Shown: positions 11,823 through 20,551, counted from the first letter of the stretch. The stretch: 64,000 nucleotides of DNA from Bacillota bacterium (GCA_018725565.1 QLUR01000001.1:1-64000); one strand, 5' to 3'. Translations and numbers: made by a program. Notes: a model not told the origin generated them from the sequence alone.

Positions 11823-12191
11823 TCATGGGTTCAGGGAATAAGCTAATCCCAGCGACGCTGCAGCCTCGCCCATTTTCTTGTCGAGCGTCCATAGCGCAGT
11901 ATCCGTCAGAAGAGCCGTGGCAAGCAAATGCATATCGATGTAACCCAGTCCTTTTCCCATAAGGTGGTGATTCTCAATAAAATTCATTACTTCATCATGC
12001 TCCGCAGTGACGGCCATAGGAAGCGCGCAAAGATAAGAGAGTATTTCGGCTCTGTTTTTGAGAGTTCCGCAGGCCAGTTCTCCGATGATGAAAGCGTGAC
12101 TCGCGGCATGGCCCTTATTCAACAATTTTACGAGGTCGATGTTCCCATCGCGCAAGTGCGCTACCCACACTGATGTATCAACAAGTACCAT
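11823..12191 (-). CDS. vapC: PIN-domain toxin (VapC-like)
   Basis: A 122-residue PIN nuclease. The conserved acidic residues that coordinate Mg are D5 (VDTSVW), E38 (GELACG), D86 (GYIDMHLLA) and D104 (TLDKK). VapC toxins cleave tRNA or rRNA and arrest translation when the antitoxin is lost. Its ATG follows directly after the TAG of the antitoxin gene, so the two are translationally coupled. The stop lies close to the arginase remnant. Confidence 0.9.
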   Translation of the reverse strand: MVLVDTSVWVAHLRDGNIDLVKLLNKGHAASHAFIIGELACGTLKNRAEILSYLCALPMAVTAEHDEVMNFIENHHLMGKGLGYIDMHLLATALLTDTALWTLDKKMGEAAASLGLAYSLNP

Positions 12192-12586: not shown

Positions 12587-13033
12587 CTATTTCGCAGGTC
12601 TGTCCCAGGGGATAAGAGAAAATCCTTCCTGCAAATAATAATCCCATAGTCTTGCGTCCCAGCATGCTACAAGCAGTTTTTCACCGTCAAGCCGTCTTGA
12701 AAGAATAATTGAACTGGCCAAATGCAGCGCGTCAAAGCCACGTAGGGGGTACTTGTCAATCAGGGTATCCACCCGCTGCAGGACAGAATCGGATACTTCC
12801 AAGGCAAAATAAGACGTCCAGTCTTCATTAAAATTGGCAACAACGTCACGATATGCCTGAGTATCCAGTATCCCCTCCCGCCCGGCTCGGGCAAAGGCGG
12901 CTCTCGCTTCTGCGTAAGCCACCTTTGAAGTAGCTATAAAAACACACTTCCGCGAATAATCAGCAACAAGCTCACTGCCCTCTTCCTCAACATAAAGCTT
13001 AACCAAGGCACTGGTATCGAAATAACAGATCAT
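12587..13033 (-). CDS. second PIN-domain toxin (VapC-like)
   Basis: A 148-residue PIN protein of a different subgroup from the neighbouring one. Acidic residues are D6 (YFDTSALVKLY), E42 (AYAEARAAF), D101 (FDALHLA) and D126 (WDARL). The DALHLA form is typical of PIN toxins paired with Phd-type antitoxins. Its start overlaps the stop of the antitoxin gene by 4 bp (ATGA), a typical toxin-antitoxin arrangement. Confidence 0.9.
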   Translation of the reverse strand: MICYFDTSALVKLYVEEEGSELVADYSRKCVFIATSKVAYAEARAAFARAGREGILDTQAYRDVVANFNEDWTSYFALEVSDSVLQRVDTLIDKYPLRGFDALHLASSIILSRRLDGEKLLVACWDARLWDYYLQEGFSLIPWDRPAK

Positions 13034-15077: not shown

Positions 15078-16163
15078 ATGACGCGCAAAGAGTTTTTAAA
15101 GTTACTTGGCCTGGCTGGCGGAGGGGGATTGCTTTACCTGGCCGGCAGATCCTGGCTGTTCAAGGATCCTCCGGGGGAGGGCCAAGGGAGGCTAACGGCT
15201 GAGGATGGGCAATGGCGGCCGGCCTATGCCGTGCTGGAAGAGGATGGCCGGCTGGCCGAGCGCGTTGAGCAGGCCTACAGCGTCATGGAAAACTGCCGGC
15301 TTTGTCCGCGACGCTGCGGGGTAAACCGCCGTGCGGGACAGCGAGGCTTTTGCCGCGCTCCTGAAAAAGCGATGGTTCACAGCCATCAACCACATTTTGG
15401 CGAAGAACTGCCGCTGGTGGGACGAGGCGGTTCGGGCACTATATTTTTCTCCAACTGCAACCTGCGCTGCGTCTTTTGCCAGAACTGGCCTATTGCCCAT
15501 GAGGGCTGGGGGCGCGAGGTCAGCGATGAGGAACTGGCGGAGATGATGCTTGACTTGCAGCGCCTGGGGTGCCATAATATCAATTTGGTTACCCCTACCC
15601 ATGTCATGCCCAATATCCTGGGGGCGGTGCGCATCGCCCTGCAAAAAGGGCTGCAGCTGCCGCTCTGCTACAACACCAGCGGTTATGAACTGACTGAGAT
15701 GGTCAGACTGTTGGACGGGATTGTCGATATTTACCTGCCGGATATAAAGTTCATGGATGGCCTGGAGGCGGAACGCTACAACCTGGCTGCTGCGGCTGAC
15801 TACCCGCAGATGGCCAAGGAATCTACAATCGAAATGCACCGCCAGGTCGGCCTGGTGATTACCGATGAACACGGCATTGCTTTGCGCGGGCTGATGATAC
15901 GTCACCTGGTGATGCCGAACCGGGTGGCCGGAACGAGGGAGCTTGTGCAGTGGGTGGCGGCGAACCTGCCCAAAGAAACCTATGTAAATATAATGTCGCA
16001 ATACCGCGTCGAGTTCATGGCCTTTGATTTCCCGCTGATTGCCCGCGCCATCACTTCGGAGGAATTCGTGGAAGCTATGGGATGGGCCAGAGAGGCGGGA
16101 TTGACCAACCTGGATGAAAGGTCACTGTCTAACTACGAGATACACCGCCGCAGGGCCTCCTGA
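15078..16163 (+). CDS. radical SAM protein of the PflX-like family (COG1313) with Tat-like N-terminus
   Basis: A 361-residue radical SAM enzyme. The SAM-binding cluster motif is SNCNLRCVFC (C127, C131, C134); an N-terminal Cys set (CRLCPRRC at 73-80, C92) is shared with PflX-like/AmmeMemoRadiSam enzymes and may hold a second metal site. The N-terminus MTRKEFLKLLGLAGGGGLLYL resembles a Tat signal with RK in place of RR and a hydrophobic stretch, which is odd for an enzyme that needs cytosolic reductant. Remnants of a second copy lie at 16791-16943. The substrate is unknown. Confidence 0.83.
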   Translation: MTRKEFLKLLGLAGGGGLLYLAGRSWLFKDPPGEGQGRLTAEDGQWRPAYAVLEEDGRLAERVEQAYSVMENCRLCPRRCGVNRRAGQRGFCRAPEKAMVHSHQPHFGEELPLVGRGGSGTIFFSNCNLRCVFCQNWPIAHEGWGREVSDEELAEMMLDLQRLGCHNINLVTPTHVMPNILGAVRIALQKGLQLPLCYNTSGYELTEMVRLLDGIVDIYLPDIKFMDGLEAERYNLAAAADYPQMAKESTIEMHRQVGLVITDEHGIALRGLMIRHLVMPNRVAGTRELVQWVAANLPKETYVNIMSQYRVEFMAFDFPLIARAITSEEFVEAMGWAREAGLTNLDERSLSNYEIHRRRAS

Positions 16164-16632
16164 TTCTCCTGCCTGCTGCGAAGGTTTACTGCCACAATCC
16201 GGGTTAGGGCGGTGCCGCAGTTTTTGCATATTTATCAGTATCCCTGGTCCCGTTGGCAAAAGAACATACGCTTCCTAAGCCCTGCCGGCTCTGGCCCGCA
16301 GATAGATATTACAGATTGCATCCGGCCGGATCGTCGGTCGTTGTCAGTAAAAATTTTGTGAAGAGTTTACTCTCCCGGCAGGAATTTGCCATTAAAAGAA
16401 AGAATAGAATAATTAAATAAATTAAGAATAAACTGAAATTACTGAAGACTTTCTCCCGGCCAATATTCGGTGCTTTATGCTTGGGAGGGGTCTATTTTGT
16501 TTAGGTCCCGGTCTAAAACCTGGTTAGATAAAAAAAAAATTGTTGGAACGGCCTGTAATGTTACATTATATAATGAAGAGAGGCCTGAAAAAGTCGTATT
16601 GGGAGCGCAAAAATAAAGAGAGGAGAAGATCA
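16164..16632. other. intergenic stretch with a remnant of the downstream radical SAM gene
   Basis: This 469-bp gap contains, at 16183-16228, a near copy of 16944-16988, the 3' end of the minus-strand radical SAM gene. It carries a one-base insertion that destroys the frame. A TATAAT at 16569-16574 may be the -10 of a promoter for the small membrane peptide gene. Otherwise the sequence is AT-richer and shows no gene. Confidence 0.6.
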
Positions 16633-16761
16633 ATGGCAGAATCAATCGGATTGACTTTGCAGATTGCTGTCACAGGGCTGCTGTCCAGTTGGCTTGTTAT
16701 CTGTATCTTTATATTGCTGGCTAAGGTTCTCTCGGTTGTATTTCCTCACCAGCGGAGCTAG
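16633..16761 (+). CDS. small single-span membrane protein, OadG-like
   Basis: A 42-residue peptide (MAESIGLTLQIAVTGLLSSW, then a VICIFILLAKVL hydrophobic segment) with one membrane span and a short basic tail. The pattern VTGL followed by a hydrophobic run and AKVLS matches the gamma subunit family of oxaloacetate decarboxylase and related Na+-pumping decarboxylases. AGGAGAAG lies before the ATG. The frame extends upstream to 16540 but without a ribosome site. No alpha or beta decarboxylase subunit is adjacent; the nearest relative is the carboxyltransferase at 27.3 kb. The assignment from so short a protein is tentative. Confidence 0.5.
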   Translation: MAESIGLTLQIAVTGLLSSWLVICIFILLAKVLSVVFPHQRS

Positions 16762-16790
16762 GCATAAGATGCAGCGCGGAAGACTTCCGT

Positions 16791-16943
16791 CTTTGCCCGC
16801 GACGCTGCGGTGTAAGCCGCCGTGCGAGTCGGTTGGGCTGTTGCCGTGCTTCGGAGAACCTACAAAAAGAAAAGAGTTGCAGCTGCTATTAAGCTAACAA
16901 CACCAGCGGCTACGAGCTGCTCGAAGTAGTCAGCCTGTGGGAA
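16791..16943 (+). pseudogene. decayed remnant of a second PflX-like radical SAM gene
   Basis: Read in frame from 16791 the sequence gives LCPRRCGVSRRASRLGCC, matching residues 75-92 of the intact gene at 15078. Further on it gives NTSGYELLEVVSLWEGL (around 16899-16949), matching NTSGYELTEMVRLLDGI of the intact gene. The roughly 100 residues between, including the radical SAM cluster motif, are deleted. It ends where the neighbouring minus-strand radical SAM gene ends. Confidence 0.75.
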
Positions 16944-16946
16944 GGG

Positions 16947-18119
16947 TTACTGCCACAATCCGGGTAGGGCGGAGCCGCAGTTTTTGCAGGCTCCGTTTTC
17001 CAGATTCATCTCCGCGATAATGAAGCCTATTCTTTTAATTACCTTCTGCCCGCAGCCGGGGCAGAAGGTATTTTCGCCTTCATGCCCGATTACTTTGGCG
17101 ATATAGACAAACTTTAGGCCCGCCTGCAGGCCTGCCTCACGGGCCTGCTCCAGCGTGGAAACCGGGGTCTGCGGCAGGGTGGAAAGCCTGAACAGCGGAT
17201 AAAAACGGGCAAAGTGCAGCGGCACCTCCGGCCCCAGTTCCTCCGCGATCCAGCGGCACATCTTCCTGATCAGGGCCAAATCATCGTTTAAGGTGGGGAT
17301 AACGATATTGGTAATCTCCAGGTGGACGCCCTCGTCACGCAATATTTTCAGGTTTTCCAGGACAGGCGCCAGTTCCCCGCCGGCCACCTCCCGGTAAAAG
17401 GCCTCGTCGAAGCCTTTTAGGTCGACGTTGACCGCATCGAGCGTCCGGCAAAGCTTCCGCAGCGGCTCCGGCCGGAGGTACCCGGCGGTGTGCGCCAGGT
17501 TCAGCAGCCCGGCTTCTTTGGCCAAAGCGGCGGTGCTTGCCATGTACTCAAAGAAAGCTGCCGGCTCGCCGAAGGCATAACTGACGGCGCGGACGCCCGA
17601 GGCCAGCGCGTGGGCCACTACTTTTTCAGGCGGCATGTCGTAGTTATGCACTTCTTCAGGCTTCACCAGGGCAATATCCCAGACCTCGCAAAAATGGCAG
17701 GACAGGTTGCACCCGGCAGTGGCGATGGACAGGGCACGGCTGCCTGGTACCACGTGGTAGAAAGGCTTGCGTTCCACGGGATCTTCCTGCACCAGAGCGG
17801 GGTTGCCGTAGGTCAGGGTATACCCGACCCCCCCGCGGTTTTCCCGCACCCGGCAGGGAGACCGTTCTCCTTCCGCCAAAGAACATCCCCGGGGGCAGAG
17901 CTGACACCGAACCATGTTATTTTCCGCTTGCCTGAACCAAGGAGATGGCACCGGATTAACCAGGCCGATTTGGACGCCTCTGGCTGCCTGCTCTTGCGGT
18001 TCACTTCTGACCGGGGCACAACCCGCAAATTTAGACAGAGAAAGGGCGCAAACAGAAAGCGCGCCGGCTTTGAACAATTCCCGCCGGCTTAAACCTGTTG
18101 GCAGTTTTCTTTCTGACAC
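16947..18119 (-). CDS. amrS: AmmeMemoRadiSam-type radical SAM enzyme (AmrS-like) with Tat/lipoprotein-like N-terminus
   Basis: A protein of about 390 residues. The cluster motif is AGCNLSCHFC (C137, C141, C144), preceded by an N-terminal CQLCPRGC set and followed by a C-terminal zinc ribbon (CPGCGQ and CKNCGSALPG). The GTG at 18119, with GGGAGGTC about 7 nt upstream, is preferred to the much longer open frame. That start exposes LSRRELFKAGALSVCALSL then FAGC at residue 34, a twin-arginine motif with a lipobox-like cysteine. An exported radical SAM enzyme would be unusual. The gene overlaps the end of the spermidine-synthase-like gene by about 30 bp. The AmrS name refers to the family; its substrate is not established here. 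Confidence 0.83.
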   Translation of the reverse strand: MSERKLPTGLSRRELFKAGALSVCALSLSKFAGCAPVRSEPQEQAARGVQIGLVNPVPSPWFRQAENNMVRCQLCPRGCSLAEGERSPCRVRENRGGVGYTLTYGNPALVQEDPVERKPFYHVVPGSRALSIATAGCNLSCHFCEVWDIALVKPEEVHNYDMPPEKVVAHALASGVRAVSYAFGEPAAFFEYMASTAALAKEAGLLNLAHTAGYLRPEPLRKLCRTLDAVNVDLKGFDEAFYREVAGGELAPVLENLKILRDEGVHLEITNIVIPTLNDDLALIRKMCRWIAEELGPEVPLHFARFYPLFRLSTLPQTPVSTLEQAREAGLQAGLKFVYIAKVIGHEGENTFCPGCGQKVIKRIGFIIAEMNLENGACKNCGSALPGLWQ

Positions 18120-20551
18120 TCGGCAGACCTCCCTGTTATTAAAAGTACCGCTAAGGCGGTAAGGGCGGCTGTGGCGGCCAGCAAGCTGCAGGCCACGATA
18201 CCCAAGACAGGGGCAACCACCGCGCCGGCCAGGATGGCTCCAAAACACGCGCCGAAAAGTTCAATGCCATAAACAGCGCCGGTGGCCCTTTCCGCCTGCC
18301 TGTTCAGGGTCAGATAACAGGCGGCTGACAACGGGAAACTGAGGCCATTGGTCAGACCTGCCGCAAACGTAAGAGCATAAAAGATAGCGGGTACAGCGGC
18401 AAGCGGTTGGACTGCTGCGGCCCGGGGGAGCACAACGGCGATGAAGACGGCCAGCAAAGCGATTGCCGCCTGCGAGCCAGCCAGGAGATCCAGCCGGCCT
18501 TTGTCAGCCACGTAACGCTGGGTCAGAAATGTTCCCAGCGCCAGACCGGCCATGAAGACAGCCATGATCAGGCCTACCATTTCATAGACGAAACCATAGA
18601 TGCTTTGAAAAGAAAACAGCATGGCAATTTGCAGCGACATGGCGGAAAGACCAGTGGCGAAGGCGGTGAAAAGCACGGCAAAGCCGGTGATTCTCCCTTT
18701 TCCGCTGCGGGCGGCCGCCGCCCGCAGTACTGTTGCTCCCAAAAGCGGAATGAGTACAAAAGGAATAATCCACCAGGGCTGGAGACGCTGCAACTGCCGG
18801 AATATCTCTCCGCGGCCCGGTCTGGTCAGCTCATCCCAAAACATCAGAGTGTAATAGTAACCGATCGGCCTGAAATCAGAATTGATAAAATAGCGTTGCT
18901 GTACCGGCGGCAAATGCTCTTCTTTCTGTTCCAGTTCAGCTACCGGTGGCAGAACAAGGGGCAAAACAGGCGGCCCGGCTAAATGCGCGCCACGGCTGCG
19001 CCCGTGATGGCGAACGGTCCAGTTCACCTGCCGCAGCTGAACTTCCGGCAGCAGAGTATAAAAATGTTGCGGGGAGAACCCGTCAACCTTAATGCCTCGT
19101 TTTTGGAATCTTTCCGACAAAATGGCAGCATCTACCGAAATTTGCTCAGGGAGGTCGGTGGCAAAGAACATCATTGACCGTTCACCGGCTACCAGTACCC
19201 GGGAAAACACTGTAGCCAGCGTGTGGTAAACGGTTGTGTTGCGGTTAGCCACGGCCAGCCCCCGCAGGTCCGGGGTGGAGGTGGCAGCGATAACAAACAC
19301 TCCTCCCGGATAGAGCAAAGCGGCGGCTTCCAGGAAAAATTCCCGGGTGTAGTAGCGATTGAGAACCGCCGTGACCGGATCGGGGAGATCGACGATAATC
19401 AGGTCGTAGCGTTCCTGCGCTGTTTTCACGAACAGTCTGCCATCGGTGTGCAGCAGGCGAACTCTTTTGTCTTGCAGTGCCGCCAGGGTAGCTGCAGAAA
19501 GATAAGGCCGGGCTATTTCGTTTAGTTCCGGGTCCAATTCGATGTAGTCAACCTGCTCCACTGGGTGCCTGGCAATTTCGCTTAAAAGTCCCCGCAGTCC
19601 GCCGCCTAGCAGCAGGACACGTCTGGGGGCCGGGTGTTGTACCATGGCCAGCTGGGCGAAGTGTACCGCTTCCTGCTTTTCAAACCCGGGCGCCGGAGCC
19701 AACGGTCCGGCCGTGCTGAACAGCAGGTGCCCGCTCTGGAAAAAGGTATACTGGTCCTGATGACGCAACACGGCGATAGTGCCGTGCCTTGACTGGCGTG
19801 TTTCTACCAGTTGGTGCAGCGGTGTAAAGTAACGCCATTTCATCCGGTAAGCCTGTTGATTCAGTTGTTCCAACAAGGGAAAGGCAACGGCTGCTACTAC
19901 CGGTAATGCCCAAAAAAGCAGGCGTCGTGGCACCGTTCGGGAGAAGAGGGTTCCTCTTTCGCCAGGCCTCGACAGGACGGCGGCAAGCAGCAGCAGGCCG
20001 CCCATAACCGCCGCCTGGAACGAATTCAGGTAATGCACGAGCAGGAAGGTAAAAGCCAGACCGCCGAGCATATTGCCTGCCGCCTCAACCAGGTAAGTTT
20101 TTCCGGCGGCAGAGGTGTCATTGTCTCCGGAACATTCGCGCCATACTCTGGACAGCAGCACAAACAGAATACCCAGCAGCAGGCAGGCCGGAGCCAGAAC
20201 CAGGAAAGCGGAGAGAGTTATATCCGTCAATGACAGATAAGCACCCGGAAGAACAGCAAACTGGCTGCGCAGTCCCCGGATGAGCCAAATTGTAACCGGC
20301 AAGAACAGTAAAATGCCGGCTGTGCAAAAATATAACAAACCTATGGGGTTGCTGCAGCGGATGGACAACGCGGCCCCCAAGCGACTGCCTGCACCCACCC
20401 AGATCAGCCAGGCAGCCAGGATGATTCCGATGGAAAGTTCGTTGCCGTGAAAGACCATTAGTAACTCACGCAGGAAGAGAACCTGGGCGATTTGTGACGT
20501 GGCCCCCAGCATCAGTACGGCCGGGAACGGGGTCCGTATTTTCATTGCCAT
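18089..20551 (-). CDS. membrane protein with an embedded spermidine-synthase-like methyltransferase-fold domain
   Basis: 820 residues in three parts: six or seven membrane spans (about 1-230), a soluble Rossmann domain (about 240-540) resembling spermidine synthase, and a second set of spans (about 610-810). The soluble domain has the cofactor loop LLLGGGLRGLLSEIA, the acidic residue in YIELDPEL, HTDGRLFV, and YDLIIVDLPDP where polyamine synthases have the catalytic Asp. Such fused proteins are common in bacteria but mostly unstudied; they may transfer aminopropyl groups or act on another amine at the membrane. It overlaps ExoD upstream and the radical SAM gene downstream, suggesting co-expression. 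Confidence 0.83.
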   Translation of the reverse strand: MAMKIRTPFPAVLMLGATSQIAQVLFLRELLMVFHGNELSIGIILAAWLIWVGAGSRLGAALSIRCSNPIGLLYFCTAGILLFLPVTIWLIRGLRSQFAVLPGAYLSLTDITLSAFLVLAPACLLLGILFVLLSRVWRECSGDNDTSAAGKTYLVEAAGNMLGGLAFTFLLVHYLNSFQAAVMGGLLLLAAVLSRPGERGTLFSRTVPRRLLFWALPVVAAVAFPLLEQLNQQAYRMKWRYFTPLHQLVETRQSRHGTIAVLRHQDQYTFFQSGHLLFSTAGPLAPAPGFEKQEAVHFAQLAMVQHPAPRRVLLLGGGLRGLLSEIARHPVEQVDYIELDPELNEIARPYLSAATLAALQDKRVRLLHTDGRLFVKTAQERYDLIIVDLPDPVTAVLNRYYTREFFLEAAALLYPGGVFVIAATSTPDLRGLAVANRNTTVYHTLATVFSRVLVAGERSMMFFATDLPEQISVDAAILSERFQKRGIKVDGFSPQHFYTLLPEVQLRQVNWTVRHHGRSRGAHLAGPPVLPLVLPPVAELEQKEEHLPPVQQRYFINSDFRPIGYYYTLMFWDELTRPGRGEIFRQLQRLQPWWIIPFVLIPLLGATVLRAAAARSGKGRITGFAVLFTAFATGLSAMSLQIAMLFSFQSIYGFVYEMVGLIMAVFMAGLALGTFLTQRYVADKGRLDLLAGSQAAIALLAVFIAVVLPRAAAVQPLAAVPAIFYALTFAAGLTNGLSFPLSAACYLTLNRQAERATGAVYGIELFGACFGAILAGAVVAPVLGIVACSLLAATAALTALAVLLITGRSAECQKENCQQV

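Follow-up and report, generated by a model that had tools for sequence, protein, structure and literature searches.

Radical SAM Proteins with Tat-Type N-Termini in a Conserved Gene Cassette of a Bacillota Bacterium

Overview

Two convergent genes in a 64,000-nucleotide stretch of a Bacillota genome (QLUR01000001.1:1-64000; hereafter the window, from the 2.67-Mb assembly GCA_018725565.1) encode radical SAM proteins with Tat-type N-termini (p1 and p2). Together with the gene for a membrane protein (p3), they form a conserved cassette that probably places SAM-type chemistry at the outer side of the cytoplasmic membrane (Table 1); judged from sequence, a Tat-exported, membrane-bound radical-SAM module is the most likely reading. 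Radical SAM enzymes depend on SAM, on a [4Fe-4S] cluster that can be reduced, and on a donor of low potential, and for this reason they are considered to be located in the cytosol or to face it. A non-exhaustive literature search returned no description of exported, periplasmic, or Tat-dependent radical SAM enzymes, and the main text of two papers on soda-lake isolates (PMC7691419, PMC13274419) makes no mention of a radical SAM protein; Tat signals of individual proteins may already be marked in public annotation. The enzyme families are known, and we rate their location and assembly as the unexpected and new element.

Table 1. Features of the cassette and of related loci (window positions unless a locus is named)
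Feature	Position	Strand	Basis
p1, radical SAM protein, pyruvate-formate-lyase-activase fold, Tat-like N-terminus	15078..16163	+	ORF, PF04055, AlphaFold, relatives
p1 Tat-like signal or anchor, MTRKEFLK and Gly-rich h-region, residues 1-27	15078..15158	+	conserved motif
p1 radical SAM cluster motif CNLRCVFC, C127-C134	15456..15479	+	present in 58/58 exported-type relatives
p2, Tat-type AmmeMemoRadiSam-family radical SAM enzyme (TIGR04337)	16947..18119	-	TIGR04337 score; 64/64 aligned relatives match the model
p2 Tat lipoprotein signal, SRRELFK, h-region, lipobox FAGC to Cys34	18018..18119	-	motif and cleavage patterns
p2 radical SAM cluster motif CNLSCHFC, C137-C144	17688..17711	-	present in 91/91 exported-type relatives
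p3, 14-TM membrane protein with spermidine-synthase-like domain, fused MFS/SpdSyn family	18089..20551	-	NF037959, PF01564; overlaps p2 start
p3 SpdSyn-like domain, residues 243-591, predicted extracytoplasmic	18779..19825	-	7+7 helices, charge pattern, fold
Fused Memo-AMMECR1 with Sec or lipoprotein signals	L136:3532-4995; L139:2744-4258; L130:6168-7682		

Two Radical SAM Proteins

The intact reading frame of p1 (361 residues) opens with MTRKEFLKLLGLAGGGGLLYLAGRSWLF (longer excerpt: MTRKEFLKLLGLAGGGGLLYLAG) and has an AAGGAGG ribosome-binding site, recognized by inspection, ahead of its start. Counted from the GTG at 18119, p2 has 390 residues and the N-terminus VSERKLPTGLSRRELFKAGALSVCALSLSKFAGC; a GGGAGGT ribosome-binding site, again found by inspection, lies about 7 nt before this codon. 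The p2 reading frame includes the signal stretch SRRELFKAGALSVCALSLSKFAGC, whose cysteine is Cys34 if the GTG is the start. Both proteins belong to the radical SAM superfamily (PF04055, 50.4 bits for p1 and 69.6 bits for p2; cut-off 29.5), and p2 also belongs to the family of the AmmeMemoRadiSam system radical SAM enzyme (TIGR04337, 334.5 bits; cut-off 220). Among the curated family models p1 fits no equivalog, its scores against the activases lying under the cut-offs (NrdG2, 28.1 versus 131; PFLA, 19.4 versus 232); the top PDB match of its AlphaFold model (pLDDT 89.9, with a disordered linker at residues 23-42) is 3cb8 (PFL-AE; target TM 0.73). The three cluster cysteines of p2 are invariant across 64 sequences, and in all p1 and p2 relatives checked CX3CX2C is intact, with the Asp-x-Lys motif retained in both proteins. 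A sequence-only reading of this DNA had described two radical SAM enzymes with twin-arginine-like N-termini, and had given the protein ending at 16947 the sequence SRRELFKAG, a hydrophobic run, and a lipobox-like cysteine at position 34; the family scores, cluster motif, and signal counts given below bear out the first statement, and the GTG start at 18119 the second.

Export Signals and Their Controls

The signal of p2 is that of a textbook Tat substrate, with SRRELFK matching the S/T-R-R-x-F/L-L/F-K pattern, a moderate h-region, and the lipobox FAGC. The corresponding motif of the window's p1 is a degenerate TRKEFLK, with Arg-Lys in place of the twin arginine, and a simple pattern scan found no lipobox, no AxA, and no clear cleavage site in it; the observation of twin-arginine-like N-termini is confirmed, with this one correction for p1. 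Most p1 relatives outside the window's class have Arg-Arg, many relatives combine it with a lipobox or an AxA site, and the first arginine is invariant in 48 aligned p1 proteins. In the window's genus p1 is without the lipobox cysteine that other members of the class have, and its export by its own signal is less certain there; it may have a weak signal, be held by an N-terminal anchor, or travel together with p2.

Relatives were collected by class-wide searches (98 genomes) and by a scan of species genomes (80 loci). They fall into a signal-bearing group (identity of approximately 60-87% with p1, or of 42% or more with p2) and a second group that has no extra N-terminal segment, its matches beginning at about residue 46-62 of the queries. 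A filter that looked for RR, KR, or RK in Tat-like surroundings and, after it, a moderately hydrophobic stretch with few charges was passed by 53 of 58 exported-type p1 proteins versus none of 12 cytosolic paralogues, and by 83 of 87 exported-type p2 proteins versus none of 20. The background pass rate was 0.9% for shuffled N-termini and 2.7% for random 110-residue ORF windows; the shuffled sequences and the paralogues together exclude a chance motif. Curated Tat models matched some relatives (TIGR01409 in 20 of 48 p1; PF10518 in 9 of 48 p1 and 18 of 64 p2) and neither p1 nor p2 of the window. Conservation of the twin-arginine motif in homologues, which had been proposed as a check, was found in the form of Arg-Arg, Lys-Arg, or Arg-Lys. 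In trees of the cores with signals removed, one branch (SH-aLRT 99 for p1 and for p2) separates the exported-type proteins from the cytosolic ones, these being quick trees in which the cytosolic rows have long branches.

In the window's class and other Bacillota, p2 mostly has a lipobox cysteine at a constant distance from the motif, and many p2 proteins from genomes labelled as diderm have an AxA site instead; the counts are approximate, since the pattern used was simple and left 15 p1 and 19 p2 signals unassigned, and the phylum labels may be wrong, many of the relatives being metagenome bins. The signal part of both proteins evolves faster than the core (dN/dS approximately 0.1-0.7 versus 0.05-0.16), as is usual for signals, which weakens signal conservation as proof; dN is nevertheless below dS within the signal region of p1 and p2. 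The genome encodes Tat machinery, namely a single tatC and, adjacent to it on the downstream side, a tatA-like gene (assigned by sequence). No relatives were found on viral contigs.

That the N-terminal segments are mis-annotated upstream sequence, with the true start farther downstream, is hardly credible. Cytosolic paralogues do begin approximately 45-60 residues later, as this explanation would expect, but the segments are conserved over many phyla and under the constraint just described, and ribosome-binding sites precede the upstream starts. Moreover, ATG, GTG, and TTG are all absent between signal and core in 14 of 53 p1 and 29 of 80 p2 genes, leaving these without a possible internal start, and we reject a mis-annotated start. 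Homologues lacking the segment, which together with an internal start would have spoken against the sequence-only reading, proved to be a separate group of cytosolic paralogues.

A Conserved Cassette with a Membrane Partner

In most close relatives the genes are ordered p3 > p2 > < p1, and p1 relatives that are 60-87% identical share this arrangement. Where enough sequence was available, p3 lies directly upstream of p2, ending at most 400 bp away, in 39 of 40 loci, and p1 is convergent with p2 at a distance of at most 500 bp in 47 of 55; the same neighbor tests on cytosolic p2 paralogues gave 0 of 22 (p3) and 0 of 23 (p1). Across the genomes of the class, 23 have exported p1 and p2 together, 2 have just one of them, and 73 lack both (Fisher p 4e-20). 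Among more distant exported p2 genes, 15 of 32 have a p3 homologue within 1.5 kb.

The membrane partner scores 64.7 bits against NF037959, the fused MFS/spermidine synthase family (cut-off 40), and is a member of it. Its AlphaFold model (pLDDT 88.5, pTM 0.89) consists of seven membrane helices, a spermidine-synthase-like domain that matches solved spermidine synthases in structure comparison, and seven more helices. AlphaFold itself gives no orientation; the positive-inside rule, which is empirical, was applied to the loop charges (mean Lys+Arg 20.8 on the N-terminal side versus 4.6 on the domain side, the N-terminal side being the richer one in 35 of 35 sequences) and predicts that the N-terminus is inside and the domain outside. 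Residues E338 and D370, which in an alignment fall at the nucleoside-binding positions known from spermidine synthases, are nearly invariant. The aspartate of the spermidine synthase GGGD motif is a leucine in p3, so the ligand may not be decarboxylated SAM.

Relationship to Known Systems

In the AmmeMemoRadiSam system a radical SAM enzyme (TIGR04337) is joined by Memo (TIGR04336) and AMMECR1 (TIGR04335). The window's p2 resembles this enzyme in scoring well above the family cut-off, and differs from it in having a Tat-type signal and, in the window, p1 and p3 as partners, with neither Memo nor AMMECR1 beside it. Memo (PF01875) was not found anywhere in the window's genome, which excludes it as a partner of p2 there. 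The only AMMECR1 in the genome forms the C-terminal part of a 463-residue protein (its N-terminal part LigB-like by eye) that is followed by a cytosolic p2 paralogue (335 residues); the paralogue thus keeps the usual company of the family, whereas exported p2 has other partners, and in this genome p2 belongs to the enzyme family without being a component of a complete system. By our own reading of the sequence, the cytosolic AmmeMemoRadiSam-like genes (L151:2227-5531) are directly followed by a diadenylate cyclase-like gene.

Some distant exported p2 relatives (in loci L139, L130, and L136) do adjoin fused Memo-AMMECR1 proteins, whose N-termini (MQLSKILLAFQLSSVFLFLNC..., MRPLPKLVILAALAACLAPLGHAAAA...) are signal or lipoprotein sequences, implying from sequence that these relatives may have an exported AmmeMemoRadiSam system. 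DUF362-type proteins with Tat-like N-termini also adjoin exported p2 relatives (L130:3993-4994, L139:575-1579, and L142:5960-7000).

The glycyl-radical activase PflA is the best PDB match of p1 by fold and of p2 by sequence, and shares the cluster and Asp-x-Lys motifs with both. In contrast to it, p1 falls below all activase equivalog cut-offs, p1 and p2 have an export signal, and no PFL-like (glycyl radical enzyme) gene is present at the locus. Four PFL-like proteins are encoded in the genome, and the three N-termini that were read have no signal sequence; an exported glycyl radical enzyme as the substrate is therefore unsupported. The third protein, p3, resembles the fused MFS/spermidine synthases in score and fold, and is unlike them in being a fixed partner of exported radical SAM genes, in its replaced GGGD aspartate, and in the predicted position of its domain. 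A periplasmic Fe-Fe hydrogenase with a Tat/SPase II signal provides a precedent for an exported Fe-S enzyme (PMC10924467): p2, like it, is predicted to be exported as a folded Fe-S enzyme and anchored by a lipid, but the proteins described there comprise hydrogenases and electron-transfer proteins and no radical SAM enzymes.

Probable Location and Activity of the Module

Taken together, these data strongly support export as the predicted fate of p1 and p2. The sequence-only reading had left open whether the N-termini mediate export or outside anchoring, or serve as membrane anchors facing the cytosol. Were the N-terminal segments to hold stalled or non-exported proteins at the membrane with the catalytic domain on the cytosolic side, the enzymes could draw on ordinary ferredoxin and on the SAM of the cytosol, and the Arg-Lys motif and missing cleavage site of the window's p1 would be accommodated. 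However, the positively charged n-region predicts an N-in/C-out topology, and lipobox and AxA sites, which matter on no other side than the outer one, favor export; the predicted outside position of the p3 domain, the signal sequences of the partner Memo-AMMECR1 proteins, and the separation of p1 and p2 in the trees from paralogues that have no anchor point the same way. With the conserved motif and the Tat machinery, this evidence favors export or external anchoring, and we regard a cytosol-facing anchor as quite unlikely.

Exported p1 and p2 might also carry out no radical SAM chemistry outside, their clusters having a structural, sensory, or electron-transfer role instead. In favor of this, neither a donor of low potential nor a source of SAM is known outside, and Fe-S electron-transfer proteins are routinely exported by Tat (PMC10924467). 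Conservation of CX3CX2C in all members, of the Asp-x-Lys motif, and, strongly, of the core argues against such a role, as does the neighboring p3 domain, which has a fold that uses SAM derivatives; a non-catalytic role is on this evidence rather unlikely.

For the module that we favor, the Tat-type signals, cluster motif, cassette, and predicted p3 topology come from the sequence, and from them we infer export, activity outside, the supply of SAM, a donor, joint action, and a substrate. In this scheme p2 would fold and receive its [4Fe-4S] cluster in the cytosol, and Tat would then export it for lipid anchoring at Cys34; p1 would take the same route, via its own degenerate signal or together with p2. 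The membrane-bound p3, with its nucleoside-binding, spermidine-synthase-like domain outside, probably makes use of SAM or one of its derivatives on that side or presents it there, and may also bring the compound through the membrane; the three proteins would jointly modify an envelope or extracellular substrate. The main difficulty is the supply of electrons outside. A serious but still tentative possibility is a true extracytoplasmic radical-SAM pathway. SAM or one of its derivatives would reach the outside through the membrane, perhaps with the help of p3, a low-potential donor there would reduce the clusters, and the exported p2 and p1 would act on envelope or extracellular molecules; across the wider family, the entire AmmeMemoRadiSam system would have been moved outside.

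An exported set of this kind, if true, would require a supply of SAM beyond the membrane and electrons of suitable potential in the same place, and would imply a previously undescribed radical modification on the cell surface. The cassette has a defined gene order and relatives in many phyla, and in its exported form it offers a route to the function of AmmeMemoRadiSam systems.

Habitat of Cassette Carriers

Soda-lake sample names are attached to 40 of the 47 close loci (L070-L114, L148, and L149), with three PLM2 names counted, on our assumption, as soda-lake; two further close loci (CROMO) presumably come from serpentinite samples. Only one of the 33 more distant loci (L115-L147), namely L138, is of the soda-lake or serpentinite kind. 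By the Nernst equation the H2/H+ couple lies near -0.59 V at pH 10, which is in principle low enough to reduce such clusters. The link to soda lakes is a lead, not mechanistic evidence, and the bias may just as well stem from genes exchanged between bacteria that live together and from how large those surveys were. The names CSSed, T1Sed, T3Sed, and B1Sed denote soda-lake sediments (PMC6146748, PMC6704655).

Surroundings of the Cassette in the Window

The gap between p1 and p2 (16164-16946) contains decayed copies of both genes: 16778-16858 resembles p1 at 15287-15367 (79%), 16897-16946 resembles p1 at 15670-15719 (76%), and 16177-16228 resembles the 3' end of p2 (93%). Judged from these similarities, the copies look as they would after an old duplication of the convergent junction. 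Between 11823 and 13317 two genes look by eye like PIN-type toxin genes (11823-12191 and 12587-13033), the second preceded by a gene that, likewise by eye, is antitoxin-like.
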